Of a stretch of DNA of 52,131 nucleotides, positions 19,790 through 36,908 are shown in pieces; positions within the stretch are counted from its first letter, which is position 1; each line of letters begins with the position of its first letter. The translations under genes were made by a program, and so were the position numbers. Origin of the DNA: Bacteroidaceae bacterium (GTDB taxonomy: Bacteria > Bacteroidota > Bacteroidia > Bacteroidales > Bacteroidaceae); assembly GCA_017651315.1 (NCBI GenBank), contig JAGCDE010000003.1, forward strand, positions 1 to 52,131, in the 5' to 3' direction. Below the pieces are notes generated by a model. It was given only the letters and a program-made list of their open reading frames with translations, did not search any database and was not told where the DNA came from.

Positions 19790-19818
19790 TGAATTGAAAG
19801 GATTTGTAACATCATAAG

Positions 19819-19838
19819 GGTCTGTTAAAGACCGCTTT
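19819..19838 (+). terminator. Weak hairpin between the GH9 gene and the export operon
   Basis: GGTCT (19819-19823) pairs with AGACC (19829-19833) and is followed by GCTTTTC. The 5-bp stem is short, so it may be only a partial terminator, and read-through into the ABC operon is possible. No clear promoter is visible in the remaining gap. Confidence 0.3.
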
Positions 19839-19857
19839 TCCGGAAGCTGAATTTATC

Positions 19858-20739
19858 ATGTCGATAACTATAAAAGGATTAAGTCATTATTATCCCAACG
19901 GTAAGAGAGCGCTAACCGATATCAATCTGGAGATACCTTCAGGAATGTTCGGGCTTTTAGGTCCGAACGGTGCAGGAAAATCCACCCTGATGCGTATTCT
20001 GGTAACCCTGATGGAGCCATCTGAAGGTCAAATCGATGTTTGTGGCTACGACATACGTACTCAGCGTAAGGAGGTACGTCGCATTTTGGGTTATCTGCCA
20101 CAGGACTTCCGTTTCTTTGCAAGGTACAAGGTTCGTGAATTCCTGGAATATGCCGCCGCTCTATCAGGTATGACAAACTCTGCAGAGCGCGGCAAGGCAG
20201 TTGATGCCATGCTTGAACAGGTAGGCCTGTATGAAGCCCGTGACAGGTATGCGCAGAATTTGTCCGGTGGCATGAAACGACGTCTTGGCATTGCCCAGGC
20301 ACTGATTCATAAACCTCAGATCCTGGTGGTTGACGAGCCGACAACCGGACTTGATCCTGAGGAACGTATCAGGTTCCGTAACCTGTTGAGTGAGGCCAGT
20401 TCAAAAGACACCACAATCATTCTCTCTACCCATATTGTCGGTGATATTTCAAGTTCATGCACGGAAATGGCTATGCTCAACCAGGGTCAGGTTATGTTCA
20501 GAGGTTCACCTGCCGGGATGCTCAAGGAGACTGAGGGTAAGGTCTGGCGTCTCAAGGTGACTAACGAACAGTATGCTGAAATCAACCGGAAATATGCAGT
20601 GATTTCGACTATACCCAACGGGTTGGGATGGGATATTCAGGTAGTAGCCAAAAGTATCCCCGGTTACGATGCGGTCAGCTATCCTCCAAACCTGGAGCAT
20701 GCGTACGTTTATTTTATGGAGGTTAAGGATAAGGAGTGA
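19858..20739 (+). CDS. ABC transporter ATP-binding protein (export type)
   Basis: A 293-residue ABC-2 family ATPase. Walker A GPNGAGKS is at 35-42, signature LSGGMKRR at 135-142, Walker B VVDEP at 157-161, and the H-loop is LSTHIVGD, all intact. It has a C-terminal accessory region of about 80 residues. It closely resembles the ATPase domain at the C-terminus of the RND fusion protein in this operon: both read GMFGLLGPNGAGKST and share GLDP-x-ERIRFRNLL after Walker B, so they may form a heterodimer. It is the first gene of the seven-gene export operon and ends with a TGATG overlap into the permease. Confidence 0.9.
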   Translation: MSITIKGLSHYYPNGKRALTDINLEIPSGMFGLLGPNGAGKSTLMRILVTLMEPSEGQIDVCGYDIRTQRKEVRRILGYLPQDFRFFARYKVREFLEYAAALSGMTNSAERGKAVDAMLEQVGLYEARDRYAQNLSGGMKRRLGIAQALIHKPQILVVDEPTTGLDPEERIRFRNLLSEASSKDTTIILSTHIVGDISSSCTEMAMLNQGQVMFRGSPAGMLKETEGKVWRLKVTNEQYAEINRKYAVISTIPNGLGWDIQVVAKSIPGYDAVSYPPNLEHAYVYFMEVKDKE

Positions 20740-23700
20740 TGTGGATAGGAATAACTAACATACGCATAGTCTCCAAGTACGAGACAAAACTGCTGGTCCG
20801 TGGCTGGTTCTTCAAGGTGTTTGCCTTCCTGGCACTGTTTGCTGCGGTTATTTTAGGGTCAATGTATATACTCTCGCAGTACCAGCAGCCACAGATGGTG
20901 AACAGGTCGGTGATTCCCTATATGTTCATGCTGATAATGAATGTGGGGCAGGCCGTTGTGTCGGTTTTCTTAGCATCGGAGTATCTCAAGCGCGATAAGC
21001 AGCTCGATACGTCGGAAATATTCTACACCCGTCCGCTGAGCAATGCCGAGTACCTTTTGGGAAAGATGTGGGCAACTTTGAAAGTGTTCTTCATCCTTGA
21101 CATTATTGTGGCGTTGATAGCTTTGATTATGAGTCTGATCAAATACGGATTTGACTTGGACTATGTCAGTTATATATGGTATTTCCTGTTGCTGTGTGTG
21201 CCGACGCTGGTGTTCATAGTGGGCCTGTCAACAACACTGATGCTGCTGCTCAACAATCAGGCTATCACAATGGTGATACTTCTGGCATATATAGGCGTGA
21301 CCCTGTTCTATATAGATAATGTGTATTATTATCTTTTCGATTATATTGGCTTCAATCTGCCTATGCTTAAATCTGTGATAACGGGTTTCAGCGGACTGCC
21401 CAGGCTGATAAACCACAGGCTGTGCTATCTGCTGCTTGGTATAGGTCTCATTTTTTCGGATGTGTCGCTGTTCCATCGCCTTGCCAATTCAAGGTACAGT
21501 CTTCTGCCTTGGCGAATCGCGACGGCGGTCTTCCTTATAGGAGGACTTTATGCAGGATACAGGCATGTGCATCTGTTCAAGATGGATGAGAGATACAGGG
21601 CAGATATGGTTGAGCTGGACAACAGGTATGTCCATACCGGTGGCGCAGTTGCAGACTCCTGCCTGTTGTCTGTAACCCAAAACGGTGACATGCTTGACAT
21701 AAGGGCCGAATTGACTGTAAGTCCAAGGCAGAATACCGCATCGCTGGTCTTTACTCTTAATCCCGGATTCAAGTTAAACAGTGTCGATGCTCCCGGCCAT
21801 CAGATGAACTGTGAGCGGCTGATGCATCTTGTGGTTTTGGATTTTGCTGACTCATTGCCGGCAGCGAAGCCAATACACCTTATTATGGAGTATAGCGGCA
21901 TGGCCGATGAGCGCATCTGCTATTTGGATATATCGGCCGATAAACTGATAGAGAACAAGAAGGCCCTTTCTATGCTCAATATCGGAAAACGTTACCTCTT
22001 TCAGGACCGGAAGTTCACAATGCTCACACCTGAGAGTTACTGGTACCCCCGTCCCGGTGTGGCGTTTAGTGACAAAAGTCCGGAATGGCAGATGTCATAC
22101 TTTACTGATTTCCAAATCAACGTAACTCCTAATCCCGGGTTGACACCTCTCTCGCAGGGACATTGCACGGCAAATGCCGACTCCACCAGTTTCACATTCA
22201 CACCAGAGTCATCACTACCGTCAGTATCGCTTTTGATAGGTGACTATCATCCCAAGTCGCTGATGGTTGACTCAACCTTATATACTGTATGGGAACTGGG
22301 CAGATGGGACGACCAGTTTGAGGTGTTGGACTCCATACGTGACACCATTCCCACGATCATACGTGACCAGCGACGGAGTATGGAGTATCAGGCCGAAATG
22401 AAGTACCCGTTCAGACGCTTCTCGTTTGTGGAGGTGCCACTCCATTTTTCATCCTACAAGCGGGTGTGGACTTCGGTTTATGAAGAGTTGCAGCCGGAGA
22501 TGGCACTGGTCCGTGAGAGGGCGTTTGACATGGGTAGATTCCAGTTCCGTAACATGAAACGCCAATGGAGCGGTGGCGGCCGTTATAGGAGAGGAAACAA
22601 TAACATGTCTGAAAAAGATATACTTATAAATATCCTGAACAATACCATTTACTTCATGATGGAATCTGGCAGTTTCAGCGGCAGTGGCGGCAGAAACGGG
22701 CAGTTCACCATGACTCAGGTCGATAATCCGTACTTCTATCGTCCGATGTTCTACAATTTCAGATACAATATCTATTCCTCGGACTGGCCTATGGCAAACA
22801 GGATGGTAGAGTCCATAACAGGTGGGGATGTGTCCGGCAGTCAGAACTGGATGAGGAGAATGAACGGTTTGTCCGAAGATGAGAAGGCTTTGATACTGAT
22901 GGGCAAGTACGATTTTGACCGTATCATGTCTGATCCAGAGTGGGAGGATATAGCCGACAATGCCTTGGCGCTCAAGACAAAGGATTTCTTTGCTCCTGTT
23001 TCGGCTGTATTGGGCTATGAGACACTGGTGGATACAATTTCTGCTCTGACTATGGCGGAGGAGTTTGCCAATGCATCGTTTGATTCAATCCTGGACTGGG
23101 TTCAGTCCTACTCAGGAGTAAGCCTTCAGGACAAGATCGATTCTTGGGAAGAACCGGCGCGACTGGCCTGCTATAAGATAGGCACCCCTCAGATAACTAC
23201 TGTCACCACAGATACAGCCGACATATATCAGGCGGATGTTACGTTTGAGAACATATCGGACAATCCGGGGTTTGTGAATGTTGAGTTCATGTTCTATAAT
23301 ATCGAGAATGCGGGTGATGAGGATAAGCCCAAGAGTATGGTGGTGAGCGTTGGCGCCCATGAGACACGCAGGCTTGTTACGCATTGGTTCAATATTCCAG
23401 GCAACATCAGGATAAACACCATGCTTTCATCAAACCTTCCTCACGATGTCAACCTGAATAATTCGGACTGGAGTACATACGAAGGGACAGACCTGGAGCC
23501 CGAGGGCGTCTATACACTGAACGGAAGTGTGGACAATACTCTTCCCGGCGAGATAATCATAGACAATGAGGACGGCGGGCTGTTCTCCCTTTCAAGACCA
23601 CTCAGAACCGGCTATCTGTCTAAGTGGATAGACAAGTCCAGGGAGAAGAACAACGATTTCATCTATGAAGGCTTCTCCGACTGGCGTACTTTCAGTCAGT

Positions 23701-24128
23701 GGACTCTGGTGACTGACCAGAACCTGTTTGGCGATTACATCCGCTCGGCTTATATCATATCACCGGGTGACGGTTCACAGTACGCCCGCTGGAGCGTTCC
23801 GGTCAATGTGGCGGGAGTCTATGACGTGTATTTCTATGCGTCGCCCGCTCTGTACAGCAACAACAACCGGAACCGCAGGTGGAACAACAATAACAACAAC
23901 AATAATAACAACAACGGCCGCAGAGTGACTAATGACTACAATTTCGAGATAGAACAGTTCAACATGAGTGATCATGTATCTATGAACATGTGGCGTGCCG
24001 ATGAAGGCTGGAACCTTTTAGGTACGTTCAGGTTTGAAGCGGATACTGTCAGGGTCACGCTGAACAACAGGTCTGGCATCCGGGTGATTGTGGCCGATGC
24101 AGTGAGGTTCGTAAAAAGGGAAAGATAA
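20739..24128 (+). CDS. ABC-2 permease with large periplasmic M1-like region and golvesin-like C-terminus
   Basis: About 1129 residues, starting at the ATG that overlaps the ATPase stop (an in-frame GTG lies one codon earlier). Residues 1-280 hold six to seven membrane helices typical of ABC-2 permeases. The rest is periplasmic. Blocks such as LFQDRKFTMLTPESYWYPRPG (about 415-440) and RRFSFVEVPLHFSSYKRVW resemble the M1-peptidase ectodomains fused to ABC permeases in Bacteroidota, but I find no HExxH zinc motif, so it is probably catalytically dead. The C-terminal 130 residues look like a golvesin/CBM-like sandwich ending in IVADAVRFVKR. A run of 11 Asn (about 1049-1059) lies within that domain. 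Substrate unknown. Confidence 0.75.
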   Translation: MWIGITNIRIVSKYETKLLVRGWFFKVFAFLALFAAVILGSMYILSQYQQPQMVNRSVIPYMFMLIMNVGQAVVSVFLASEYLKRDKQLDTSEIFYTRPLSNAEYLLGKMWATLKVFFILDIIVALIALIMSLIKYGFDLDYVSYIWYFLLLCVPTLVFIVGLSTTLMLLLNNQAITMVILLAYIGVTLFYIDNVYYYLFDYIGFNLPMLKSVITGFSGLPRLINHRLCYLLLGIGLIFSDVSLFHRLANSRYSLLPWRIATAVFLIGGLYAGYRHVHLFKMDERYRADMVELDNRYVHTGGAVADSCLLSVTQNGDMLDIRAELTVSPRQNTASLVFTLNPGFKLNSVDAPGHQMNCERLMHLVVLDFADSLPAAKPIHLIMEYSGMADERICYLDISADKLIENKKALSMLNIGKRYLFQDRKFTMLTPESYWYPRPGVAFSDKSPEWQMSYFTDFQINVTPNPGLTPLSQGHCTANADSTSFTFTPESSLPSVSLLIGDYHPKSLMVDSTLYTVWELGRWDDQFEVLDSIRDTIPTIIRDQRRSMEYQAEMKYPFRRFSFVEVPLHFSSYKRVWTSVYEELQPEMALVRERAFDMGRFQFRNMKRQWSGGGRYRRGNNNMSEKDILINILNNTIYFMMESGSFSGSGGRNGQFTMTQVDNPYFYRPMFYNFRYNIYSSDWPMANRMVESITGGDVSGSQNWMRRMNGLSEDEKALILMGKYDFDRIMSDPEWEDIADNALALKTKDFFAPVSAVLGYETLVDTISALTMAEEFANASFDSILDWVQSYSGVSLQDKIDSWEEPARLACYKIGTPQITTVTTDTADIYQADVTFENISDNPGFVNVEFMFYNIENAGDEDKPKSMVVSVGAHETRRLVTHWFNIPGNIRINTMLSSNLPHDVNLNNSDWSTYEGTDLEPEGVYTLNGSVDNTLPGEIIIDNEDGGLFSLSRPLRTGYLSKWIDKSREKNNDFIYEGFSDWRTFSQWTLVTDQNLFGDYIRSAYIISPGDGSQYARWSVPVNVAGVYDVYFYASPALYSNNNRNRRWNNNNNNNNNNNGRRVTNDYNFEIEQFNMSDHVSMNMWRADEGWNLLGTFRFEADTVRVTLNNRSGIRVIVADAVRFVKRER
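23883..23915 (+). repeat. AAC/AAT triplet run encoding 11 consecutive Asn
   Basis: Eleven in-frame Asn codons, mixed AAC and AAT, lie inside the golvesin-like domain of the large permease. Loss or gain of triplets would keep the reading frame and only change loop length. Confidence 0.85.
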
Positions 24129-24143
24129 ATAAACAGGATAAAT

Positions 24144-25637
24144 ATGATAAGGAAAAGACTATTTATTTCGGCAATTATAGCTCTGACAGCGGCAGCTGCC
24201 CTGGAGAATAGAGTCAATGCGCAGATCGTCATGACCATGGAACAGGCTCTTGAGTACAGCGCCGAGCATAATCCCGATCTGATCAATTCACGTCTGAGTA
24301 TGGAGCGCTATGAGCAGAACCTGATTGCCCAGAAGGCATCATTGAAATCCAGGTTCTCACTGAATCTGGAGCCTTTCTCATACTCGCAGTCCCGTCAGTT
24401 TGACAGCCGTTTCTCAGACTGGTACACCAACCGCTCGCTGTCATCGTCGGGAACTTTCAGTATATCTCAGCCTATAATCTGGACCGATGCCACGCTGTCA
24501 CTCAACAACAGCCTGTCATGGCAGAACAACGAATCCACCGTAGGCGGTAACACCAATACCAACCGCGCATTCAGCAACAGGCTTTATCTGAGTCTGAACC
24601 AGCCCATCTTCACATATAACCGGACTAAGATGAACATGCGTCAGATGGAGATGGATTATGAGAACGCACGCATAAGCTACGCCCTGCAGAGACTTAACGT
24701 GGAGCGCAACATAACAAGCCAGTTCTACAGCCTGTTCATGTCACAGCAGAACCTTGCCATAAGTGAATCGGAACTCGAGAACGCCGAGAGGAACTTCAAC
24801 ATAATAAAGGACAAGGTGGAGGCTGACCTGACAACCAAGGACGAATACTATCAGGCAGAGCTTAACCTGGCCCAGTCGCGTTCCAGCCTGGAGAACCAGA
24901 GGGTGAGCCTGGAGAATGCCAAGGATAATTTCAAGCAGTCGTTGGGAATCCCTTTGGAAGAGGATATAAAGGTTGTGTGCGACATTGAGGCCGAACCGGT
25001 AATAGTGGATTTTGACAAGGCACTGGAGAGTGCTTTGACAACCAGACTTGAACTCAGACAGCGTGAGATCTCAAGGGAGCAGCAGGACATGTCAATGGTA
25101 CAGGTCAAGGACAATGACAGCTTCAACGGCAATATCTCACTTTCGCTTGGTATCATGGGTGACGACCCGTCATTTCCGGATATCTACGACAATCCCACCA
25201 ACAATCCGCGTGTGGCGGTTTCATTCAGCGTGCCCATCTTTGACTGGGGTGCAAGGAAAGCACGTATAAAGGCTGCGGAGATAGGAAGGCAGATGTTTGA
25301 GCTGAGTGCCGAAGAGGAACTCAAGAGCATAGAGATGAACGTACGCAGCACCTGCCGCAGTCTGGATAATCTGGTAGGACAGATTTCGATAGCCGAGCAG
25401 AGCCAGCGTAACGCCCAGCTTACATACGACCTCAATGAGGAGCGTTACCGCAACGGCGAGCTGACCGGACTGCAGATGAACCAGTTCCAGAATCAGCTGT
25501 CAAACAGCAAGATGTCATACACACAGGCCGTCATAAACTATAAGGTTCAGCTTCTTAATATCAAGATCCTGACCCTGTATGATTTCGAAAAGAACGTACC
25601 TGTGGTTCCCATAACATACGAGCAGAAGACCAAATGA
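24144..25637 (+). CDS. TolC-family outer membrane efflux channel
   Basis: A 497-residue protein with a signal peptide (1-26, ending NRVNAQ). Two long coiled-coil repeats are typical of the TolC/OEP family: MEQALEYSAEHNPDL... at the start, then DEYYQAELNLAQSRSSLENQRVSLENAKDNFKQSLGIP, and LNEERYRNGELTGLQMNQFQNQLSNSKMSY near the end. VAVSFSVPIFDWGARKARIKAAE is the conserved strand and helix entry of repeat two. It forms a trimeric channel through the outer membrane and would complete a tripartite pump with the adaptor and RND subunits encoded next. The gap to the permease is 15 bp, and it overlaps the adaptor gene by 4 bp. Confidence 0.93.
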   Translation: MIRKRLFISAIIALTAAAALENRVNAQIVMTMEQALEYSAEHNPDLINSRLSMERYEQNLIAQKASLKSRFSLNLEPFSYSQSRQFDSRFSDWYTNRSLSSSGTFSISQPIIWTDATLSLNNSLSWQNNESTVGGNTNTNRAFSNRLYLSLNQPIFTYNRTKMNMRQMEMDYENARISYALQRLNVERNITSQFYSLFMSQQNLAISESELENAERNFNIIKDKVEADLTTKDEYYQAELNLAQSRSSLENQRVSLENAKDNFKQSLGIPLEEDIKVVCDIEAEPVIVDFDKALESALTTRLELRQREISREQQDMSMVQVKDNDSFNGNISLSLGIMGDDPSFPDIYDNPTNNPRVAVSFSVPIFDWGARKARIKAAEIGRQMFELSAEEELKSIEMNVRSTCRSLDNLVGQISIAEQSQRNAQLTYDLNEERYRNGELTGLQMNQFQNQLSNSKMSYTQAVINYKVQLLNIKILTLYDFEKNVPVVPITYEQKTK

Positions 25638-26722
25638 ATGAAATAACAGAAATGATAAAAGATATGAAATCAGGAATCAGCGCACTTACACTGACTGTGC
25701 TCTCAGTCCTTATGACAGGGTGCAGGCAAGAGAACACAATGAACCGTAATGAAATACCCACGCCGGTATCTGTCTCTGACATCACATACGGTTCGGTAAG
25801 CAGAGTCTTCACCACAAACAGCACGGCTGTGTCAAATGCCGAGGCAGAATTGACAACAGAGATGGCCGGCAAGTATCTGCTTCAAAGAAACCCCGCAACG
25901 GGAAAGCCTTACAAACTGGGTGACAAGGTCAGGAAAGGTGCCTTGATAGTACGCATCCAGGACAAGTCTTATGAAAACGGCATATCAATCGAGACCAAGC
26001 GCCTGAATCTGGAGCTGGCCGAGCAGGAGCAGGCCAAGACTAAATCACTGTATGACAAGGGTGGTGCCACACTGACTGAAGTGAAGAACTCCGATATCAA
26101 GATTATGAGTTCACGTCTTGACTATGAGAATGCCGAGATGAATCTGGAGAAGATGAACATCCGGGCTCCGTTCGAGGGAGTGATAGTGAACCTCCCTCAT
26201 TATTCAGCGGAAGCCAAGGTTGCCAGCGGAACATCGGTGGCTACCATTATGGACTACAGCTCGATGCTGCTTGAGATAAACCTGCCGGAGAGTGCCATCA
26301 ATGAGGTGAAGGTGGGGCAGAAGGCTTACATTACCCATTACACCCTTCCTAAGGATACTATCATAGGTGAGGTTACCGAACTCTCTCCGGCCATAAGTGC
26401 GGAGACCCGTACATTCAAGGGCAAGCTTGTGATTGACAACAAGGACCTTCTTATAAGGCCGGGAATGTTCGTTAAGGCTGATATCGTTACCGAGAGTCAC
26501 AGTTCGACGATAGTGATACCTAAGAATATCGTCCGTAACGAACGCAACAGGCGTACCGTGTTCGTGGTTGACCAAGGCATAGCCAGGGCAAGGAATATAA
26601 AGTTAGGCCTTGAGGATAAGAACACTGTGGAGGTGTTGAGTGGCCTTGAAAAGGACGATCAGTTGGTGGTGCGTGGCTTTGAGACACTTAGAGACGGTTC
26701 AAAGGTAAAAATCCAGAGATAA
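25634..26722 (+). CDS. Periplasmic adaptor (membrane fusion) lipoprotein of an RND pump
   Basis: A 362-residue HlyD/AcrA-family adaptor with a lipobox (LMTGC, Cys30 counted from the first ATG). Starts at codon 1 (ATGA overlap with the TolC gene) or codon 11 (MKSGISALTL) are both possible. It has a lipoyl half (KPYKLGDKVRKGALIVRIQDKSYE), a helical hairpin (about 115-160), the second lipoyl half (NIRAPFEGVIVNLPHYSAEAKVASGTSVATIMDYS), a beta-barrel, and the membrane-proximal domain ending VVRGFETLRDGSKVKI. It should bridge the RND trimer to the TolC channel. Confidence 0.93.
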   Translation: MNEITEMIKDMKSGISALTLTVLSVLMTGCRQENTMNRNEIPTPVSVSDITYGSVSRVFTTNSTAVSNAEAELTTEMAGKYLLQRNPATGKPYKLGDKVRKGALIVRIQDKSYENGISIETKRLNLELAEQEQAKTKSLYDKGGATLTEVKNSDIKIMSSRLDYENAEMNLEKMNIRAPFEGVIVNLPHYSAEAKVASGTSVATIMDYSSMLLEINLPESAINEVKVGQKAYITHYTLPKDTIIGEVTELSPAISAETRTFKGKLVIDNKDLLIRPGMFVKADIVTESHSSTIVIPKNIVRNERNRRTVFVVDQGIARARNIKLGLEDKNTVEVLSGLEKDDQLVVRGFETLRDGSKVKIQR

Positions 26723-26730
26723 GGTAAGGG

Positions 26731-29700
26731 ATGAAAAGACTGGTTAGTTGGGCGGTCAGGAATCCTGTCACTGTCACGATGGCGGTGCTGGCCATTCTGC
26801 TGCTTGGAAAGATATCATATGACAGGCTTAGCGTGGAACTGCTTCCGAGCATGAACAGCCCTCGCCTGTTTGTCGAGATTGACGCGGGCGAGCGTCCACC
26901 TGAGGAGATTGAGAAACAGTTTGTCAGGAACATGGAGTCTCAGATCGCCCGTCAGAGTGATGTGCGCAATGTCTCATCGGTAGTAAAGGTGGGTACAGCA
27001 AGGATAACGGTGGAATATACCTGGAGAAAGAATATGGACGAGGCGTTCCTGGATCTTGAGAAAGCCATGAGCAGCTTCTCACAGGACAGCCGTGTGACAG
27101 ATCTGAGAATCTCCCAGAAAGACCCTACCACCGCGCCCATAATGATCATCGGATTTTCCAATCCTGATATAGCCGATATGGCCGAACTGCGCAAGGTGGC
27201 CGATTCGTACGTATGCAACGAACTCATGAGAGTTGAAGGCGTAGCCGATGTCTCACTTGCGGGCGATGAGTTCACCAACCTGGTCATAAATGCTGACCCA
27301 TATAAACTTCAGGCTTTCGGCATAACGGTGGATAACATTTCATCGCGTATCCAGGAGAGCAATCAAAGGGTGTCGGGTGGAAGGATATCGGAACAGGGCT
27401 TCCAGTATCTCATAACGGGCTCGAATACCCTTACTGACGAAACGGCCTTCGGCAATATCATCGTGGGGTACAGGAATACCGAATCTTCACCGGGTCAGGT
27501 GGGTGAGTTCGAGACGGCCAGCATGGCACCTATCTACCTGCGCGACGTGGCATCCATACATTTTGAAAACCGTGCTCCCGATAACATTGTAAGGGTGAAC
27601 GGCAAACGCAGTATAGGCATCTCTGTATTCAAGGAGATGGACTATAACACAGTAAAGGCTGTAGAAGGTATAAAGACAAGCTTAGGTAAGATCCGGAAAT
27701 CATTGCCCGGATATGAATTAATGGTGATAAGTGACCAGGCTACCTTTATAAACAACTCCATCGGTGAGGTCAAGAACAGCGCTTTGCTTGGCATTCTGCT
27801 GGCAGTGATAGTGTTGTTCGTGTTCCTGCGCAGGGTAGGGACCACTCTTATCGTGGCAGTTTCAATACCTGTTTCGATAATAGCGACTTTCAATCTGATG
27901 TTTTTCAGCGGACTGACCATAAACATCCTGACCCTGGGAGGACTTGCGTTGGGAGCGGGTATGCTGGTGGATAACGCCATAGTGGTCATAGAAAGCATAT
28001 TCAGGAATCAGGAACGGGGGCTTTCGGTGCGTGATGCTTCGATAACCGGTACATCGGAAGTCGCCGGCGCGGTATCGGCATCAACCCTTACAACCATTGT
28101 GGTGTTCCTGCCCATAGTGTATCTGCACGGAGCAACCGGTGAGCTGTTCAAGGATGAGGCATGGACGGTGACATTCTCACTGCTTTCATCCCTGTTTGTG
28201 GCTATTCTGGTGATACCTACGCTGTATGACAAGATATTCGGACGCAAGAAAGCGGTTCCTTTGAAGAATTTCAGTTCGGTGAACATCAAGGGTTACAGCT
28301 CGTTCCTCAAACGGCTCGTGGTAAGACGCTGGTGGGTAATAGCTGCCTCAGTGATCCTGGTCGGGGGGACAGTACTCCTTCTTCCGTATGTAGGTACCGA
28401 GTTTATGCCCAAGACTGAGGACAATACCATAAACGTTAAGGTACGTATGGCCGAGGGCACCAGTCTTGAGCGTACTTCGTCAACACTTGAGAGCCTGGAG
28501 AATCTGGTATATGATTTGTCTCAGGATACCGCTTGCGTCATATACACGCATGTGGGCCCCGGCGGATCATCACAGAATCTTGATTTTGAAGGAGAGAATA
28601 CGGCGACCATGAAGATCCAGCTCTCCAGGGCATCGGCCGTTTCTCCCGATTACCTTACGGAGGTTCTTGCTGCTTATATAGACGGCGTAGAGGGTATGGA
28701 ACTCTCATTCACACAGGATGACAACTCCCTGAGTTCGATGATGGGTACCGAAGACGCTCCGTTAGTGGTGGAGGTCAAGGGTGAGGACCTGGATCTGTTG
28801 GCTTACCTGACTGAACAGGTGGAAGCTGCAGTCGATTCCATTGACTGTCTGTATAATGTGGAGAGTTCGCTGGCAGGAGGTGCACCGGAGATTATCATTA
28901 CTGTTGACCGTGCCCTGGCCGGTATGAATAATATAAACGTTTCCACGATAATCACCCAGATACAGCAGCATCTTGACGGACGTACAGCCGGACAGATGGA
29001 TTACAAGGGCGACATGAGGGATATAAGCATCAAGGTTCCCGGTGTTTCGCTTGCTGACCTGAACAGCATGGTAATAACATCAGGCCAGAAGGATTTCCGT
29101 CTTGCAGAACTGGCTCAGATAAGCGAGAGTACGGCTCCAAAGGAGATATACAGGCTCAATCAGAACAGGGTCACGCGCGTCACGGCTGATATCGATGAAT
29201 CCGTATCGCTTGACAAGGCTGCACAGAGGACAAGGGAGGCCGTGTCAGGCATTGAACTGCCTCAGAACTACTCCATAACCGTAACCGGTGAAGAGGAACG
29301 CAGGGCCGAATCCATGAACAGCCTCCTGTTGGCACTGCTGTTGTCAATTGTTCTGGTCTATATGGTCATGGCCTCGCAGTTTGAATCACTCCTGCACCCG
29401 TTTACCATCCTTCTCACCATTCCTCTTGCTTTGGTGGGAGCGGTTCTGATGTTCCTTGTCACAGGAATAACGGTGAATATCATGGGTATAATAGGTATGG
29501 TGATGCTGGCCGGTATTGCGGTAAACAACTCCATTATCCTTGTGGACAGGATAGGACAACTCAAGGACTCCGGTCTCAGCCTTACCGATGCCATAGCTGA
29601 AGCAGGACAGCAGCGAATCAGACCGATACTCATGACAAGTCTTACTACTATTCTGGCACTTGTGCCGATGGCGCTTGGATTAGGTGATGGCGCATCGCTT

Positions 29701-29823
29701 AGTTCTCCTATGGCCATTGCCGTGATAGGCGGTCTCTTCACCTCAACTCTGCTGAGTCTTGTAGTGATACCCTGTGTGTATTATGTGTTTGAAAGCGCAA
29801 AAATTAGAATCACGGGAAAATGA
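26731..29823 (+). CDS. RND-family efflux pump subunit (first of two)
   Basis: A 1030-residue RND permease with the 12-helix AcrB plan and two large periplasmic loops (about 30-330 and 555-850). TM4 reads GMLVDNAIVVIE, with Asp414 kept and AcrB Asp408 replaced by Asn415; TM10 reads GIAVNNSIILVD, so the AcrB Lys940 position is Asn932. This VDN/NN pattern occurs in a branch of RND pumps and is not proof of inactivity, but the canonical proton relay is incomplete. It lies 8 bp after the adaptor and overlaps the second RND gene by 4 bp (ATGA), which suggests a mixed trimer like MdtBC. Confidence 0.93.
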   Translation: MKRLVSWAVRNPVTVTMAVLAILLLGKISYDRLSVELLPSMNSPRLFVEIDAGERPPEEIEKQFVRNMESQIARQSDVRNVSSVVKVGTARITVEYTWRKNMDEAFLDLEKAMSSFSQDSRVTDLRISQKDPTTAPIMIIGFSNPDIADMAELRKVADSYVCNELMRVEGVADVSLAGDEFTNLVINADPYKLQAFGITVDNISSRIQESNQRVSGGRISEQGFQYLITGSNTLTDETAFGNIIVGYRNTESSPGQVGEFETASMAPIYLRDVASIHFENRAPDNIVRVNGKRSIGISVFKEMDYNTVKAVEGIKTSLGKIRKSLPGYELMVISDQATFINNSIGEVKNSALLGILLAVIVLFVFLRRVGTTLIVAVSIPVSIIATFNLMFFSGLTINILTLGGLALGAGMLVDNAIVVIESIFRNQERGLSVRDASITGTSEVAGAVSASTLTTIVVFLPIVYLHGATGELFKDEAWTVTFSLLSSLFVAILVIPTLYDKIFGRKKAVPLKNFSSVNIKGYSSFLKRLVVRRWWVIAASVILVGGTVLLLPYVGTEFMPKTEDNTINVKVRMAEGTSLERTSSTLESLENLVYDLSQDTACVIYTHVGPGGSSQNLDFEGENTATMKIQLSRASAVSPDYLTEVLAAYIDGVEGMELSFTQDDNSLSSMMGTEDAPLVVEVKGEDLDLLAYLTEQVEAAVDSIDCLYNVESSLAGGAPEIIITVDRALAGMNNINVSTIITQIQQHLDGRTAGQMDYKGDMRDISIKVPGVSLADLNSMVITSGQKDFRLAELAQISESTAPKEIYRLNQNRVTRVTADIDESVSLDKAAQRTREAVSGIELPQNYSITVTGEEERRAESMNSLLLALLLSIVLVYMVMASQFESLLHPFTILLTIPLALVGAVLMFLVTGITVNIMGIIGMVMLAGIAVNNSIILVDRIGQLKDSGLSLTDAIAEAGQQRIRPILMTSLTTILALVPMALGLGDGASLSSPMAIAVIGGLFTSTLLSLVVIPCVYYVFESAKIRITGK

Positions 29824-32800
29824 ACGTTGTCGTTAAGCCAGATGGCCAAAGAGAAAAAGCTCAACGTGGCATGGCGGGAAAAGGGCGGATAGAATCCAGG
29901 TCATTTATTGACCGGAGAGTAACTATCTGTATGCTTCTGGTGGCGATGACGCTGCTGGGCTATTTCTCCTACAAGCAGTTGCCGGTTGAGCTGCTGCCCA
30001 ATACCGAACTGCCCCAGCTTTATGTGACGTGCTCATCGCAAAGCGACCTTACTCCTGCTTACATGGAGCAGCAGGTGGTTATTCCTCTTGAGGGTGCCAT
30101 AAGCGCCGTGGGTGGTGTGGAGAATATGGAATCCACGGCATCCGGCCGGCAGGGTTCCATAAGGGTCGATTTCAAGAGGGGCACCAATCTCAAGATGACT
30201 ACCGTGAAGCTGCAGGAGAAAATCAGCTCAATAAGGTCTGATTTTCCGTCAGGTGTTTCGGTTAATGTTCAGCAGGCTAACATTAACGGCATCAGCAACC
30301 AGTTCATGTCCCTGCAGGTGCGCGGATCGGGCGGTGTTGACCGTTTGAGAGCTGTTGTTGACAAGGATGTAGTGCCGCGTCTTGAGAGCATAGACGGCAT
30401 AGCGGGCGTGACTGTCTATGGCGGAAGGGTCAAGTCCATCGAGATACGCTCCAACCCGGAGGCCATGCAGGCATTGAACATCTCCAACTCGCAGATAAGC
30501 CAGGCGTTGAGCCAGTATAATCAGGAACGTACATTCTTAGGTTATATAAGTGAGCCGGACAGGAAGTACTATGTTCAGCTTGACGCCAACTATGATGACG
30601 TGTCGCAGGTGGAGAATCTGGTGGTTGCCAACGGGCCGGTCTATCTCAAGAATGTTGCTACAGTCTTCTTCGACTATAAGGAGGAGACTACCATAAGCAG
30701 GGTGAACGGTATGGATGCCATCTCGGTGTCCCTGGTCAACGGGGCAGGTGAGAATCTTCTCAATCTCTCCAAGAGAACCCTTAAGCGTATCGATGAGGTG
30801 AACAGGGAGGTTGCCGCTCAGGATCTGCAGCTTGTGGTGCAGTCCAACTCTGCTGACCAGATCAGCAACAACATATCGCAGATTGTCAGACTGGCTCTGT
30901 TGGGAGGAATCCTGGCCATTCTGGTTCTCTGGTTCTTCCTGCGCAACATAAGTCTGGTGTTCTTCATCGCGCTGTCGATACCTGTATCCATATTGTCGGC
31001 GTTCAATATATTCTACGCAGCAGGCATATCCATAAACACACTAACCCTTATAGGTATGGCTTTGGCTATAGGTATGTTGCTGGACAGCAGTATTGTAGTG
31101 CTGGAAAACATATACCGGCTGGCCTCTATGGGAATGCCGCCGCGTCTTGCTGCCTTGCAGGGCGTCAAGGAGGTCAGGAAAGCACTTATTGCATCTACGC
31201 TTACAACCGTAACCGTGTTCCTTCCGTTCGTGTTCTCCGATGAGCCGATGATAAAGCTCTTGGGTAGGAATATCGGTTTCTCTATCATATCTACATTGAT
31301 ATTCTCGCTTTTAGTGGCTGTCACGTTCATTCCTATGGCAACGGCGGCCATGATGGAGCGGGGAGGCGGAGGCAACAGTGTGTTCTTCAAGAAGATGTCC
31401 ATTCACGACCGTCCGCTGCAGATGTACTCGACACTCCTCAAGACCTGCCTGCGCAAGCCTGGACCTACAGTAGGTACAGCAGTGGCAGTCCTGGTGATAG
31501 CTTTCATATTCGCCCTGTCCCGCAATACCGGTCAGAACCGTCAGATTGACAGTGACAGAATCAACGTGAACATCACTATGCCTACCGGCAGTACTCTTGA
31601 CGATACCGATGAGGCTACGGCCATGCTTGAGGAACGTCTGGACAGTTTCCCCCAGAAAAAGGATGTCATAAGCCGCATACAGGAAGAACAAGCCTCGATA
31701 ACGGTCACCCTACAGGAAGGTTATAACGGGAAGGATGGTATGACCATAAGCCAATTGGTTGAACAGTTGAGCGATGAGCTTACCCTTGAGGATGATGATA
31801 TTGATGTGCGTGTGACTCCAGGTTATGGGGGCGGACAGCAGAGCGCGTCGGGACTCAGTTCGATTACAAGGTTCATGAGTGTGCTTGGCGTGGGTGACAA
31901 CACTGAGAGGATAGTCGTGAAGGGATCGGACATAGAGACTATGCGTATCGTATCCAATAACCTGAGGTACTATCTGGAACAGTTGGAGTTTATACGTGAC
32001 ATCAGGGTTGACAATCCCGGTGGCCGCCGGGAGGTGCAGCTTACCTTTGACCCTGTGTCACTGGCATCGTACAACATTTCCAACCAGGCCATAACCTCGG
32101 CATTGGGTTCACTGAACCGGTCAACCAGCTCCGGAACCAGCTTTAAGGTTGGATCCGATGAATATGACATTGTCATAATGGATGACCTCACAGAGGAAGA
32201 GGAGGAAGCCGGACGATGGGAAAAGACTATGGATGACCTCAGACGTGTCATTGTTACCGATGCTAACGGAGGAACGCATGAGCTGCAGCAGCTGGCTAAT
32301 ATCCGCCTGAGCCGTGGACCGTCGGAGGTAAGGCGTGTGAACCGCGACCGTAGGGTAAACGTGACATACGCCATTTCACAGAGCGAGGATCTGCCAAAGG
32401 ATGTACTTGACGGTTATCATGAACAGATAGATGATATAATCGCCAATTACAACCTTCCTTCCGGACTGGCTCTTGAGGTGCAGCGCGGTGATGACTCCAC
32501 CAGTGAGTTCAAATTCCTTATCCTGGCTTCTATAATACTCATATTCATGATCCTGGCGTCGGCGTTCGAATCACTTGCCACGCCTGTGGTGCTGCTGTTC
32601 TCCATACCGTTGGCTGCCATAGGTTCACTGCTTGCACTGCTGTTGTCGGGCAACAGCCTGATGAACGCCAACACCCTGACGGGATTCCTGATCCTTCTCG
32701 GAATAGTGGTGAACAATGGTATCATACTCATAGACTACTCATCGACACTGCGCTCCAGAGGCTATGGCCGCATGAGGGCAATCATGACCAGCGGATACTC

Positions 32801-34595
32801 ACGCCTGAGGCCCATCTGCATTACTACAATCACTACCATTGTCACTCTTATCCCGATGGCTATGGGCGACAATGAATATGCGGGTGCCATAGGTGCGCCG
32901 TTTGCGCTGACTGTCATAGGCGGTCTTACATTCTCGGCTGTGCTTACACTGCTGCTTATCCCTACGCTTTACATATCATTTGAGAACATGAGGGCATGGT
33001 ACAAGGGCTTGGGCCGTTATACCCATATCCTGCATGCCGTATTGTTCGGTGTGGGGCTGGTCGTTATCCTTACAAGTGTGAGCGGTGTATTCAAGGTGCT
33101 TCTTTCCATAATCCTGCTGGCAGTTGCCATTCCGGGAGTGACATATTTCGTGAAGAGTTCAGTAAGGATCGCCCGTAAGGACATCGTGAGTCCCGATGAG
33201 CCCATTGTAATTGAGGTCCGTAACCTGGTCAAGGTATATGACTGGTACAGCCTGTTCCTGCGTCAATGGCGGAGCGGTCTGAACATACGCCGCAGATTAG
33301 GGCTCTCCCGCACTTTCCGTCATCCTAAGGATTTCGTGAGCCTGATATGGCAGGTGGTTGTGTTTGCATATACAGGTTATCTGGCCGGGTGGTATTTTGA
33401 AAAGCAGGGATGGATCCTGCTTATGACCATCATTACGCTGGCGGGCATAAACAATATCATAAAGGCCATACTTCAGTATGTTTCATTCAAATCCGAGAGA
33501 GGAGCGGAGATATCGTCAAAACTTAAGAAAATCCTCTATTGGGCGTTACCCGTATGTGCCATGCTGTTCCTGAGCCGACGCATTGAGAGCAACGGATTCA
33601 TGGTTTTCATTGCGGTCGTCTGGCTGCTGGGTCTCTTTATCCGCAAGACATCGGATTACCTCTATGACAACAACATTAACGTGGAGCGTCTTGGTGACGA
33701 GACAGCCGGAATAAAACGTGCGTGGTTCGTGTTAGTGAAGAGCATCCCTATCATTGGCAAGCGCAAGAAACCTTTCAAGGCCTTACGCGGTGTCTCGTTC
33801 GAGATTCACAGCGGTATGTTCGGCCTGTTGGGACCCAATGGAGCCGGTAAATCCACGTTCATGCGCATTGTTACCGGAATACTGCGCCAGAGCTATGGAA
33901 CGGTGTTCATCAATGGTATGGATACTCTCAAATACAGGGAGGAGCTGCAGAGTCTCATAGGGTTCCTGCCCCAGGAATTTGGTATGTATGAGGCGATGAG
34001 TGCTTGGGATTTCCTTAATTATCAGGCTATCCTCAAGGGAATCACCGATGAGAATGTCCGAAAGGAGAGGCTTGAGTATGTGCTTACTTCCGTGCACATG
34101 TATGAACAGAGAAACTCCGAAATCGGATCTTTCTCAGGAGGCATGAAACAGCGAATAGGTATAGCGCTCATACTGCTCAACCTGCCGCGTATCCTTGTCG
34201 TTGACGAACCTACCGCCGGTCTTGACCCCAGGGAACGAATACGCTTCAGGAACCTGCTTGTTGAGTTGAGCCGTGACCGTATAGTGATATTCTCCACTCA
34301 TATAATCGAGGATATAGCCAGTTCATGTAACCAGGTGGTGGTCATTGAGAAGGGTTCGCTCAAGTACTTCGGATTACCCTCCGAGATGGTTAATCTGGCG
34401 AAGGACAAGGTGTGGCTCTTTGACATTGATGCATCACGCCTGGGTGAACTTGACGAGAAACTGATAGCTAATCACATTCAGGATGGTGACATGATAAAGG
34501 TGCGTTACATATCGCCTACATGTCCGTTCCCGGGTGCTGAACCTGCCGAGCCCAACCTTGAGGATGCATACCTATGCCTATTGAAGAATCTTTAA
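29820..34595 (+). CDS. RND efflux pump fused to an ABC ATPase domain
   Basis: One uninterrupted 1591-residue frame. Residues 1-1057 are a full RND pump: TM4 GMLLDSSIVVLE with Asp422, and TM10 GIVVNNGIILID with Asn965 at the AcrB Lys940 position. About 1068-1115 adds two helices. An ABC ATPase begins at 1129 (IVIEVRNLVKVYD), is interrupted by about 175 residues with four hydrophobic helices (about 1172-1193, 1198-1219, 1238-1252, 1259-1275), and resumes at ALRGVSFEI (1321). Walker A GPNGAGKS is at 1338-1345, signature SGGMK 1439-1443, Walker B ILVVDEP 1458-1464 and H-loop His1494, all intact. The even helix number keeps both halves cytosolic. I know of no characterised protein with this plan. 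The pump may be driven or gated by ATP; that is inference. Confidence 0.9.
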   Translation: MNVVVKPDGQREKAQRGMAGKGRIESRSFIDRRVTICMLLVAMTLLGYFSYKQLPVELLPNTELPQLYVTCSSQSDLTPAYMEQQVVIPLEGAISAVGGVENMESTASGRQGSIRVDFKRGTNLKMTTVKLQEKISSIRSDFPSGVSVNVQQANINGISNQFMSLQVRGSGGVDRLRAVVDKDVVPRLESIDGIAGVTVYGGRVKSIEIRSNPEAMQALNISNSQISQALSQYNQERTFLGYISEPDRKYYVQLDANYDDVSQVENLVVANGPVYLKNVATVFFDYKEETTISRVNGMDAISVSLVNGAGENLLNLSKRTLKRIDEVNREVAAQDLQLVVQSNSADQISNNISQIVRLALLGGILAILVLWFFLRNISLVFFIALSIPVSILSAFNIFYAAGISINTLTLIGMALAIGMLLDSSIVVLENIYRLASMGMPPRLAALQGVKEVRKALIASTLTTVTVFLPFVFSDEPMIKLLGRNIGFSIISTLIFSLLVAVTFIPMATAAMMERGGGGNSVFFKKMSIHDRPLQMYSTLLKTCLRKPGPTVGTAVAVLVIAFIFALSRNTGQNRQIDSDRINVNITMPTGSTLDDTDEATAMLEERLDSFPQKKDVISRIQEEQASITVTLQEGYNGKDGMTISQLVEQLSDELTLEDDDIDVRVTPGYGGGQQSASGLSSITRFMSVLGVGDNTERIVVKGSDIETMRIVSNNLRYYLEQLEFIRDIRVDNPGGRREVQLTFDPVSLASYNISNQAITSALGSLNRSTSSGTSFKVGSDEYDIVIMDDLTEEEEEAGRWEKTMDDLRRVIVTDANGGTHELQQLANIRLSRGPSEVRRVNRDRRVNVTYAISQSEDLPKDVLDGYHEQIDDIIANYNLPSGLALEVQRGDDSTSEFKFLILASIILIFMILASAFESLATPVVLLFSIPLAAIGSLLALLLSGNSLMNANTLTGFLILLGIVVNNGIILIDYSSTLRSRGYGRMRAIMTSGYSRLRPICITTITTIVTLIPMAMGDNEYAGAIGAPFALTVIGGLTFSAVLTLLLIPTLYISFENMRAWYKGLGRYTHILHAVLFGVGLVVILTSVSGVFKVLLSIILLAVAIPGVTYFVKSSVRIARKDIVSPDEPIVIEVRNLVKVYDWYSLFLRQWRSGLNIRRRLGLSRTFRHPKDFVSLIWQVVVFAYTGYLAGWYFEKQGWILLMTIITLAGINNIIKAILQYVSFKSERGAEISSKLKKILYWALPVCAMLFLSRRIESNGFMVFIAVVWLLGLFIRKTSDYLYDNNINVERLGDETAGIKRAWFVLVKSIPIIGKRKKPFKALRGVSFEIHSGMFGLLGPNGAGKSTFMRIVTGILRQSYGTVFINGMDTLKYREELQSLIGFLPQEFGMYEAMSAWDFLNYQAILKGITDENVRKERLEYVLTSVHMYEQRNSEIGSFSGGMKQRIGIALILLNLPRILVVDEPTAGLDPRERIRFRNLLVELSRDRIVIFSTHIIEDIASSCNQVVVIEKGSLKYFGLPSEMVNLAKDKVWLFDIDASRLGELDEKLIANHIQDGDMIKVRYISPTCPFPGAEPAEPNLEDAYLCLLKNL

Positions 34596-34609
34596 AAGAA
34601 TCAGACCCT

Positions 34610-35323
34610 ATGTCAGTATTAGAGACGGTGAAATCTTTCGCCAAGTTGTGCGGTTACAATATGAGGATTATCTTTTCCGGCAAGTTCATCTGGTTCCTGC
34701 TGGTTGGACTGGCACTGTTCTTCTTCCTTATGTTCACTGCAGCATCCAGAGGTGCCACTTTGAGTCACGGCATGGTCTATAGTCAACTTATAATACCCGG
34801 ACTCCTGCTGGTGTTTTACCCTGCATGTTTCGGAATCCAGAATGATGCCGATCACCGTATATTGGAACTCCTGTTCGGTATTCCGAACTATATGTATAAG
34901 GTGTGGCTGTTCAGGTTATTGATGATTTACGTTGAGGTTTATCTTATCCTTGTCGTCTATGCCTTTCTGGCCAGGATCCTGCTGTATCCGGTGGCGCCGT
35001 TCTCTATGGCGATGAAGCTTATGATTCCCGTCATGCTCTTCGGTAACCTGGCATTCCTGTACTCCACGCTCATCCGCAACGGTAATGCTGCAGCCGTACT
35101 TTCCGTGCTTACTGTGATATTGGCGCTGGTACTGGGTAATATTCCGCTCGTTGAGAACAAGGTATGGGATGTCACAATCAATCCATACGAGGAACCGGAG
35201 AACATCAACGCCGCCATCTGGGGGGTGATTCTGCTAAAGAACCGGATCATGATGATTGTGGCCGGTATCATTTTCCTGATGTCCGGGCTGTTAGGACTCC
35301 AGAACCGTGGCAAGTTCCTCTGA
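34610..35323 (+). CDS. ABC-2 type permease subunit
   Basis: About 237 residues from the ATG at 34610; an in-frame ATG at 34574 inside the preceding gene is an alternative. It has an N-terminal amphipathic stretch (VLETVKSFAKLCGYNMRIIFSG) then six hydrophobic segments, the ABC-2 permease plan. It lacks the long periplasmic part of the other permease in the operon. The natural reading is that it pairs with the ATPase domain of the fusion protein encoded just upstream, or forms a heterodimer with the large permease. It is the last gene of the export operon; a hairpin with a T-run follows 40 bp downstream. Confidence 0.85.
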   Translation: MSVLETVKSFAKLCGYNMRIIFSGKFIWFLLVGLALFFFLMFTAASRGATLSHGMVYSQLIIPGLLLVFYPACFGIQNDADHRILELLFGIPNYMYKVWLFRLLMIYVEVYLILVVYAFLARILLYPVAPFSMAMKLMIPVMLFGNLAFLYSTLIRNGNAAAVLSVLTVILALVLGNIPLVENKVWDVTINPYEEPENINAAIWGVILLKNRIMMIVAGIIFLMSGLLGLQNRGKFL

Positions 35324-35330
35324 ATTATTT

Positions 35331-35362
35331 TTTGGATAATATTCCATTTAATATTAACTTTG
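35331..35362 (+). promoter_or_regulatory. Promoter of pepD
   Basis: TTTG at 35331-35334 and TAACTTTG at 35355-35362 are 20 bp apart, an exact fit to the Bacteroidota form. The start of transcription would be near 35369, inside the left arm of the hairpin that follows. Confidence 0.7.
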
Positions 35363-35398
35363 GCATATCAGTCGCGCAGGGTGACTGATATGCTTTTT
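35363..35398 (+). terminator. Hairpin with T-run between the export operon and pepD
   Basis: GCATATCAGTC (35363-35373) and GACTGATATGC (35383-35393) form an 11-bp perfect stem with a 9-nt loop, followed by TTTTT (35394-35398). It is a good intrinsic terminator for the export operon. It overlaps the predicted pepD start of transcription, so a pepD transcript would carry only part of the stem. Confidence 0.65.
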
Positions 35399-35426
35399 CA
35401 TGTATAACCAATTAAACTATGAGAAT

Positions 35427-36908
35427 ATGACTATCAAAGACTTACAGCCCAAGATCGTTTGGGATAACTTTTATGGGATTACCCGTCAGCCGCGTCCGTC
35501 CAAACACGAGGAGAAGATCCGTGCATGGCTTTTAGATTGGGCCAGGCAGCGCGGTATCGAGGCTTTTGCCGATGAGACCGGTAACGTGATAATGCGCAAG
35601 CCCGCCACTCCGGGTATGGAGAACCTCAAGGGTGTCATCATGCAGGGGCACATGGATATGGTGCCTCAGAAGAATGCCGATGTTAAGCATGACTTTGAGA
35701 AGGATCCCATTGAGACCTGGGTTGACGGTGAGTGGCTCAAGGCTAAAGGTACTACACTTGGCGCCGATAACGGTCTGGGCGTTGCCCTGGCACTGTCTGT
35801 GTTGGAATCGGACGATATCAAGCACGGTCCGCTGGAACTGCTTGTAACATATGATGAGGAGACCGGTATGACCGGCGCACAGGCGCTCAAGCCGGGTGTG
35901 CTCAAGGGTGAGATTCTGCTCAACCTGGACTCGGAGACAGAGGGTGAGATTTATGTAGGCTGTGCCGGTGGTCTGGACGCATCAATCAAGGGTACCTACG
36001 AGCGCAAGCCGGAGCCCAAGGGCTGGCTCTGCTACAGCTTGGCCGTTAAGGGATTCCAGGGCGGTCACTCAGGTATGGATATCATCCTGTGCCGTGCCAA
36101 TGCCAATAAGGTAGGCGCGCGCGTAATGTACGCTCTGCTTACCAAGGCCGATGTAAAACTGATCGATATGGAGGGCGGTACACTGCGCAACGCAATCCCG
36201 CGTGAGTGCTTCGCCACCGTCTATGTTGATCCTGCCAAGCTGGATGTTGCCAAGAAGGTTGTGGCCGATGTTTTTGCCGAGGTCAAGGCCGAATATGCCG
36301 CAACCGATCCCGGCTGCAACTACGTATTCGAGCCCTACCAGTGCGCTCAGGGTGAGACCTGTGATCCCGATGAGTGCCTCTATGTAGAGGAGGGTACAGC
36401 CCTGCGTTATATCCAGGCCATTCTGGCTTGCCCGGACGGTGTGGAGCGCATGAGCGACCAGATGCCGGGCCTGGTTGAGACATCCAACAACATGGCCATG
36501 GTCAAGATTTATAAGGGCGAGTTCTTTATCGGCAACCTGCTGCGCAGTTCGGTTGACTCGGCCAAGGAACTTCTGGCTCTGCGCGTTCGCAGCGTAGCTG
36601 AACTGGCTGGCTGCAGGATTGAGCTTACCGGAGGCTATTCAGGCTGGGCACCTAATGCCGCATCACCCATACTGCATGTGATGAAGGAGGAGTATAAGAA
36701 GATGTTCGGCACCGAGCCCAAGGTTATGGCTATCCATGCCGGTCTGGAGTGCGGTATCCTGAGCGGAGCATACCCCAACTGGGATATGGTATCCTTCGGC
36801 CCCACACTCATGAGCCCCCATTCACCCGACGAGCGCTGCTACATCCCCTCCGTCCAGAAAGTCTGGGACTACCTCAAAGCAGTTCTCGCTGCCATACCTA
36901 AGAAGTGA
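35427..36908 (+). CDS. pepD: Aminoacyl-histidine dipeptidase (PepD, M20 family)
   Basis: 493 residues from the ATG at 35427 (MTIKDLQPKIVWDNF), chosen over one nine codons upstream because PepD proteins begin here and are about 485-490 aa. It is an M20/M28-like di-zinc peptidase: MQGHMDMVP holds the first ligand His and Asp, GTTLGADNGLG the bridging Asp, TYDEETGMTGA the catalytic Glu and a ligand Glu, and NLDSETEGE another ligand. SFGPTLMSPHSPDE near the C-terminus supplies the last His. It hydrolyses beta-Ala-His and other X-His dipeptides in the cytosol. It is a single gene ended by the structured repeat at 36923. Confidence 0.94.
   Translation: MTIKDLQPKIVWDNFYGITRQPRPSKHEEKIRAWLLDWARQRGIEAFADETGNVIMRKPATPGMENLKGVIMQGHMDMVPQKNADVKHDFEKDPIETWVDGEWLKAKGTTLGADNGLGVALALSVLESDDIKHGPLELLVTYDEETGMTGAQALKPGVLKGEILLNLDSETEGEIYVGCAGGLDASIKGTYERKPEPKGWLCYSLAVKGFQGGHSGMDIILCRANANKVGARVMYALLTKADVKLIDMEGGTLRNAIPRECFATVYVDPAKLDVAKKVVADVFAEVKAEYAATDPGCNYVFEPYQCAQGETCDPDECLYVEEGTALRYIQAILACPDGVERMSDQMPGLVETSNNMAMVKIYKGEFFIGNLLRSSVDSAKELLALRVRSVAELAGCRIELTGGYSGWAPNAASPILHVMKEEYKKMFGTEPKVMAIHAGLECGILSGAYPNWDMVSFGPTLMSPHSPDERCYIPSVQKVWDYLKAVLAAIPKK

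Follow-up and report, generated by a model that had tools for sequence, protein, structure and literature searches.

Tripartite exporters are classed by their engine as ATP-binding cassette (ABC), resistance-nodulation-division (RND) or major facilitator superfamily (MFS) machines, and the passages found in the review that sets out this scheme (PMC8277102) mention no fusion of an RND pump with an ABC ATPase. Here we describe a gene that encodes such a fusion in a contig of 52,131 bases (C41; JAGCDE010000003.1 of assembly GCA_017651315.1, from a Bacteroidaceae bacterium). This whole contig, which we call the window, belongs to a 2.69 Mb draft genome of 59 contigs that is 83% complete. An ATP-driven exporter that works with an adaptor and TolC is known, namely MacAB-TolC, and one ABC exporter requires two nucleotide-binding domains (NBDs) and two half-permeases. 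Among RND pumps, MdtB and MdtC assemble into a trimer with the stoichiometry B2C, according to the portions available of two papers (PMC4338810, PMC12802153).

The fusion occupies positions 29820..34595 on the forward strand as a single open reading frame (ORF) of 1591 amino acids (aa), exactly as an original prediction made from the letters of the window had it. We call it RND2::NBD2. It lies in a block of seven genes, in the order NBD1, P1130, OEP (outer membrane channel), MFP (adaptor), RND1, RND2::NBD2 and P249. A literature search found no paper on an RND-ABC fusion, in keeping with the original prediction, which knew of none that had been characterised; subscription titles were mostly outside the coverage of that search, so absence from it is no proof.

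Recurrence of the fusion in other genomes

We searched 393 genomes of the same order with residues 1053-1591, from the joint to the end, and counted matches above 400 bits. At least 52 of the 393 matched (51 of 392 besides the window's own), a lower bound because three candidates were scored per genome. The other carriers are 45-65% identical to the window in the matched stretch, and the next best match below this set is a separate ATPase at 248 bits. The original prediction had judged a sequencing chimera unlikely, and had named a frame error near 33000-33200 or relatives with the two parts in separate genes as what would undo it. Neither turned up. The open frame runs to 1515-1640 aa in 44 of the 52 carriers and reaches a contig end in the other 8, and searches with each part alone found no separate RND2 or NBD2 gene in the genomes sampled, where one frame, in genome G088, is interrupted (discussed below). 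Both halves are intact in the relatives, which agrees with the conservation expected on either side of the joint.

The RND part alone, searched in 198 genomes, gave 25 matches above the limit, with whole frames of 1536-1640 aa. This search added two further carriers, G014 and G187, whose contigs stop before the ATPase. The short frames that reach a contig end are those of G137, G011, G014, G187, G022, G278, G260, G262 and G282 and the NBD2 piece of G088; for G278, G260 and G011 this status was calculated from the lengths of the contigs. In a sample of the phylum (395 genomes) there were four more carriers, two in the same class and two elsewhere in the phylum. The five other sampled genomes of the window's own family had no fusion match.

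A scan of species genomes found at least six carriers among the best 80 loci: a Proteiniphilum metagenome-assembled genome (MAG), Parabacteroides massiliensis SN4, two Bacteroidales MAGs, a Carboxylicivirga MAG and a Candidatus Latescibacterota MAG. P. massiliensis SN4, which is titled as a strain, has the seven genes complete and in order. In the Latescibacterota MAG, one contig consists of a single open frame (1443 aa) that is truncated on both sides and covers residues 95-1527 of the fusion at 33% identity. Another of its contigs has NBD1, P1130, the channel and the adaptor with their order kept (22-49% identity), and a third has a relative of RND1 (40%). This divergence argues against contamination from Bacteroidota. 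At least 5000 plasmid records match some part of the query, and the best places are below 60% identity; the 20 records among the matches listed have RND and ABC features apart, RND alone, or neither.

The window is one whole contig of a draft in many pieces, which leaves room for a chimera made by assembly or sequencing. However, the same fusion in the order, in the wider phylum, in P. massiliensis SN4 and in the Latescibacterota MAG effectively rules this out, and we rejected it as having next to no chance of being right.

Architecture of the fusion protein

The RND permease part (residues 27-1054, 29898..32981) covers the Pfam family ACR_tran nearly from end to end (PF00873 positions 3-1020 of 1021, 550.7 bits), so the original prediction was right to call it complete. 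The position of the start codon is uncertain, as alignments with relatives set in only at about residue 27-30 of the window protein; translation may truly begin at a later ATG, for example that of Met18. Next come two extra predicted transmembrane (TM) helices at residues ~1066-1119 (33015..33176). They are helices 47-67 and 71-100 of an AlphaFold model, in the model's own numbering, and two hydrophobic segments lie between the RND part and NBD2 in 41/41 sequences. Here and below, counts refer to 41 aligned RND2::NBD2 sequences (the window included), 40 RND1 sequences and 38 NBD1 sequences.

The ATPase domain, NBD2, begins with a strand and A-loop at residues 1131-1140 (ending in RNLVKVY; 33210..33239), which is strand 112-121 of the model. 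The alignments of most of the NBD structures listed start at this strand, and its V-K-x-Y is kept in 41/41 sequences. From the model and the alignments, we predict that a membrane insert of about 175 residues (~1141-1315, 33240..33764) parts this strand and A-loop from the rest of the domain. The insert has four predicted TM helices (model 150-173, 177-205, 209-235 and 239-264). The remainder, with Walker A and B, signature and H-loop, spans residues 1316-1591 (33765..34592) and includes the ABC_tran match of Pfam (1322-1466, 89.4 bits).

Counted on alignment columns, the insert is 108-224 residues long (median 176, n=41) and has four hydrophobic segments in 26/41 sequences, five in 13/41, the window among them, and two in 2/41. 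The counts of five are probably too high, because the model of the window protein shows four long helices. The inserts with two segments instead of four (L053 and L054) are the shorter ones, at 108 residues, and the number stays even.

The original prediction placed a complete ABC ATPase at residues 1338-1494. Its motifs are indeed intact, and structure prediction of the tail does give an ABC ATPase domain, but the domain is larger, starting at 1131-1140 and resuming at ~1316, and the predicted four-helix insert had gone unseen. NBD2 would thus not be a contiguous single domain in the way that ABC ATPases are expected to be, and we know of no other NBD that is threaded through the membrane. 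Its similarity to ABCA and NosDFY chains does not settle the substrate.

Gene neighborhood

We examined 40 regions of at most 20 kb each from the 51 other carriers of the order, picked mostly for contig size. In 36 of the 40 all seven genes are present in one order and on one strand, with NBD1 at the head of every complete operon, and the other 4 are cut by contig ends. The original prediction had proposed to look for the fusion in other Bacteroidales with the same gene order, and it does recur there; the operon itself, its second ATPase (NBD1) and the split of NBD2 were absent from that account and were found here.

In the window the block runs on the forward strand. NBD1 (19858..20739) is a stand-alone ABC ATPase of 293 aa (ABC_tran, 115 bits). 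P1130 (20736..24128) combines a predicted ABC-2 half B (residues 7-250), an M1-aminopeptidase-like domain (~293-913) and a golvesin C-terminal domain (1063-1126). The TolC-like outer membrane channel (24144..25637) has 497 aa and matches Pfam OEP at 164 bits, and the periplasmic adaptor, or membrane fusion protein (25634..26722), has 362 aa and matches NCBIfam RND_mfp at 179.9 bits, where the cut-off is 94.9. RND1 (26731..29823) is a permease of 1030 aa (ACR_tran, 711.8 bits). P249 (34574..35323), of 249 aa, follows the fusion as the putative ABC-2 half A. Across loci, 149 of the 228 gaps between operon neighbours are 30 bases or less, with medians of 10 to 27. In the window the RND1 and RND2 genes share 4 bases, and those of RND2::NBD2 and P249 share 22. 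The probable end of the operon is a terminator-like hairpin at 35362..35394 on the same strand, a 14-pair stem followed by a T-rich tail; it has the longest stem of 12 sites in 19600-35600, where 10.9 sites are expected by chance.

No conserved neighbours, and hence no substrate clues from them, were found in the short flanks of the 40 loci (ORFs of at least 90 aa, up to 2-3 kb per side), where the largest common family occurs in 4 loci. Directly upstream of the block in the window, on the same strand, is a GH9-like glycoside hydrolase with a CelD N-terminal domain (17159-19789), which has no match in the ORFs of the 40 loci. One locus (L046) has an ORF of 684 aa upstream of NBD1 with a weak match to P1130 (22%), perhaps golvesin- or ABC-2-related. 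In the Carboxylicivirga MAG, an ABC ATPase-like match (28%; L110:17130-20111) sits in a frame of 994 aa about 4.7 kb past P249. Elsewhere in the window, on the reverse strand at 11456-13891, one protein carries LpxC and a FabA-like domain and adjoins LpxD.

Relationship of the ABC parts to other exporters

Judging by profile comparisons, the ABC parts look like a split and duplicated version of the widespread "ABC-2::M1 peptidase" exporters. In the stand-alone kin, the NBD gene adjoins a protein of at least 1080 aa with HEXXH in 40 of 74 loci. Five of these HEXXH proteins were scanned with Pfam, which found M1 in 5/5 and ABC-2 in 4/5, one of the four below the cut-off. The 74 loci (L113-L186) come from many phyla.

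The N-terminal part of P1130 matches half B of these kin with a profile probability of 98.6%, and also half A with 97.6%, the two halves being homologous (97.0%). Half B has the ABC-2 fold and superposes on a chain of NosDFYL, which we presume to be NosY. The C-terminal part matches the M1 domain of the kin (98.2%). HEXXH is absent from the M1 site in 38/38 P1130 sequences (L065 has HETKH at residue 885, outside the site), so the M1-like domain is predicted to be inactive and without a zinc site. An Asn/Arg-rich low-complexity run at residues ~1046-1066 interrupts the golvesin region, and the predicted local distance difference test score (pLDDT) is below 50 at 1048-1063.

For P249, hhalign gives a probability of 83.8% (E 7.8e-6) against half A of the kin, 3.5% against half B and 0.2-0.3% against control profiles of M1, RND1 and RND2. 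Within the P249 family, Pfam finds ABC2_membrane_3 in 8/40 members at E up to 1 (best 3e-5). A search of the PDB with P249 returned a designed protein alone (E 0.56), and PHROGs had no match for P249 or P1130. The operon thus appears to contain the two ABC-2 halves and the M1-like domain of these exporters, but not as a single polypeptide with HEXXH, as the halves are split over two genes and the motif is gone. We also considered a defence system and rejected it, as the PADLOC matches of NBD1 look like generic ATPase similarity. In the phylum sample, a related ABC ATPase (G734:C6:19044-19859) lies in an open frame of 1432 aa, possibly another fusion.

Catalytic and proton-relay residues

NBD2 has Walker A GPNGAGKST at residue 1338, the signature SGGMK at 1439, Walker B VVDEPT at 1460 and the H-loop STHI at 1492. 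The NBD2 sequences are 44-63% identical to that of the window, and 41/41 have Lys and Thr in Walker A, SGG in the signature, Asp-Glu in Walker B and His in the H-loop. The positions that vary are all non-catalytic, with the Walker A Ser kept in 29/41, the first Val of Walker B in 39/41 and the Ile of STHI in 40/41. NBD1 keeps Lys, SGG, Asp-Glu and His in 38/38 rows, one of which is an unrelated ABC protein (L073, 736 aa, 27% identity), and has Thr at the last Walker A position in 28/38.

On the RND side, the TM4 Asp (Asp422 in RND2, Asp414 in RND1) and the TM11 Arg are each present in 41/41 RND2 and 40/40 RND1 sequences. The motif GX3DX6E occurs in the window sequence with Gly418/Glu429 in RND2 and Gly410/Glu421 in RND1. 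In the part available of one paper (PMC5719797), D407 lies within this conserved motif and D408 is less conserved, N941 and R971 are named along with it, and a lone acidic residue is found in many AcrB-like members; in MexB, the paper reports, transport is abolished by mutations that change a charge in the D407-D408-K940 cluster. Where AcrB has D408, RND2 carries N, T, S or C and RND1 carries N. The Asn that follows the K940 position (N941-equivalent) is invariant in RND2 and found in 22/40 RND1, and RND2 also retains the R971-equivalent. An AcrB-type proton relay, with equivalents of D408 and K940, is therefore missing from RND1 and RND2, although both belong to the wider RND family (AcrB-like, HAE). 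The genome has other RND genes on other contigs; of four other RNDs compared from it, two keep the Asp pair and Lys, and two have a single Asp with Asn at the Lys position. Proton use by the RND parts is plausible from these residues. The original prediction had one half powered by protons and the other by ATP: the ATPase motifs and the TM4 Asp fit with this, but AcrB's second Asp and its TM10 Lys have no counterpart.

Proposed machine and alternative explanations

The explanation that we favor, with moderate confidence, is that RND2::NBD2 is the RND2 subunit of a hybrid exporter spanning the envelope, in which an NBD1/NBD2 dimer would power the ABC-2 halves and the fusion would anchor this ABC exporter to the RND1/RND2 tripartite pump. 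NBD1 adjoins the half B gene, NBD2 directly precedes the half A gene, and the RND pump genes lie between. Since the block has two NBDs and two predicted half-permeases, it would encode one complete ABC exporter, and the conservation of the gene set suggests a single exporter, spanning the cell envelope, into which both machines are built.

In our model, NBD2 on the cytosolic tail of RND2 would pair with the separate NBD1 to give a heterodimeric ATPase that drives an ABC-2 exporter, whose membrane halves would be P249 as half A and, as half B, the N-terminal part of P1130. RND1, RND2, the adaptor and the TolC-like channel would supply the tripartite RND pump of that machine. At the periplasmic side the ABC module would move or expose the substrate, and the M1-like and golvesin domains of P1130 would capture it, as receiver or lever. 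The substrate would then pass to the RND trimer, the adaptor and the outer membrane channel. The fusion would hold an ATP-driven and a presumed proton-driven step in one complex at a fixed stoichiometry; if there is one RND2 per RND trimer, like MdtC in MdtB2C, there would be one NBD2 and hence one ABC exporter per pump. We put forward more tentatively the idea that the two engines are coupled, with the energy of ATP hydrolysis by NBD1/NBD2 passed through the six extra membrane helices of RND2 to the RND trimer, so that the ATP and proton cycles would make one stroke; the ATPase domain itself would be threaded through the membrane.

Several observations weigh against this picture. The K940-equivalent is Asn in 41/41 RND2 and 38/40 RND1 sequences, and because of this replacement the proton drive is uncertain. 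The assignment of P249 to ABC-2 comes mainly from one profile match along with weak Pfam matches; 4/40 members of the family match Acyl_transf_3 (best E 3.4e-4), and P249 compared directly with P1130 gave no real match (hhalign probability 1.1%, and 0.2-1.0% in a second comparison). NBD1 and NBD2 do fall into a joint clan (78 tips), as the model would have it, but the clan contains four intruders and has modest support (0.76). In G088 (L202, G088:C32), the frame of RND2 breaks off at base 152 of the contig, at about residue 934 and off the joint, while another contig carries residues 1025-1591 in one frame; this is likely a contig-end fault, or else a broken gene.

Other explanations overlap with the one we favor, and their odds taken together with it do not sum to one. 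The fusion could be just a tether, for co-localisation or stoichiometry, with ABC and RND cycles that run independently on different or successive substrates. The conservation of the seven-gene block suits a tether. However, the genomes sampled yielded no split version, and the pair of extra TM helices and the NBD2 insert kept in 41/41 sequences go beyond what a flexible tether needs, so we find this explanation somewhat unlikely. A variant of our model, which we consider a little more doubtful, is that the ABC module transports nothing itself and that the ATP-driven motion of the ABC-2 halves is passed to the periplasmic M1-like/golvesin domain of P1130, and that this domain in turn opens the RND pump or loads it. 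NosDFY and MacB/LolCDE are thought to work by such mechanotransmission. ABC-2 folds also include true exporters, though, and both readings fit the present data.

It is improbable that the RND parts are a periplasmic conduit without proton use and that NBD1/NBD2 is the sole energy source. In favor of such a conduit, both RND1 and RND2 have other residues in place of AcrB's second Asp and TM10 Lys, and two of the four other RNDs compared from the genome do keep them. Yet the invariant TM4 Asp and the TM11 Arg remain, a single acidic residue is common in AcrB-like members (PMC5719797, in the part available), and the Asn at the Lys position recurs in the other two RNDs and so is not peculiar to the operon. 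Finally, we found nothing in favor of a plain RND pump whose ATPase tail is vestigial or regulatory. All 41 sequences agree at the catalytic positions of NBD2 despite their divergence, and the second NBD and second half-permease accompany NBD2 in 36/36 uncut loci, which makes such a tail very improbable.

Comparison with known systems

All the parts belong to known families, yet we know of no precedent for the fusion, for an ATPase domain threaded in this way or for such a hybrid gene block. Such genes are easily labelled as a plain "efflux RND transporter", which may be why they have been overlooked. The coupling of ATP hydrolysis to the proton gradient in one envelope machine becomes a directly testable question with this protein, and the membrane-interrupted ATPase domain is a second structural oddity. 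If the engines prove to be coupled, this would be a new class of exporter.

MdtABC-TolC likewise has two adjacent RND genes and one adaptor, and among solved structures the sequences of RND1 and RND2 both match MdtB (9lyq_B) best. MdtB has an Asp pair in TM4 and a Lys in TM10 that the RNDs of the operon keep only in part, and the gene of the outer membrane channel is inside the block, unlike in MdtABC, which to our knowledge has no ABC parts. NosDFY resembles the ABC side in the superposition of half B, and Foldseek matches the NBD2 model to, among others, NosDFY chains of ~300 residues that are presumably NosF. However, we know of no RND partner for NosDFY, and the periplasmic part here is M1-like. 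The operon differs from MacAB-TolC in carrying an NBD at the C-terminal end of an RND permease and in its ABC permease, predicted to be of the ABC-2 type, so this is not a fusion of the MacB type.

By profile, the ABC-2::M1 exporters are alike in the type of NBD, the ABC-2 halves and the M1-like domain. Those exporters pair an NBD gene with a neighbor that encodes both ABC-2 halves and M1 in one protein. In the operon, two genes share the permease, the M1 site has gone, golvesin is added and there are two NBDs, of which one is fused to an RND pump, with the genes of an RND tripartite system in between. A conserved chain that unites an RND pump with an ABC ATPase, in a gene block complete for both, cuts across the classes by which tripartite exporters are sorted.

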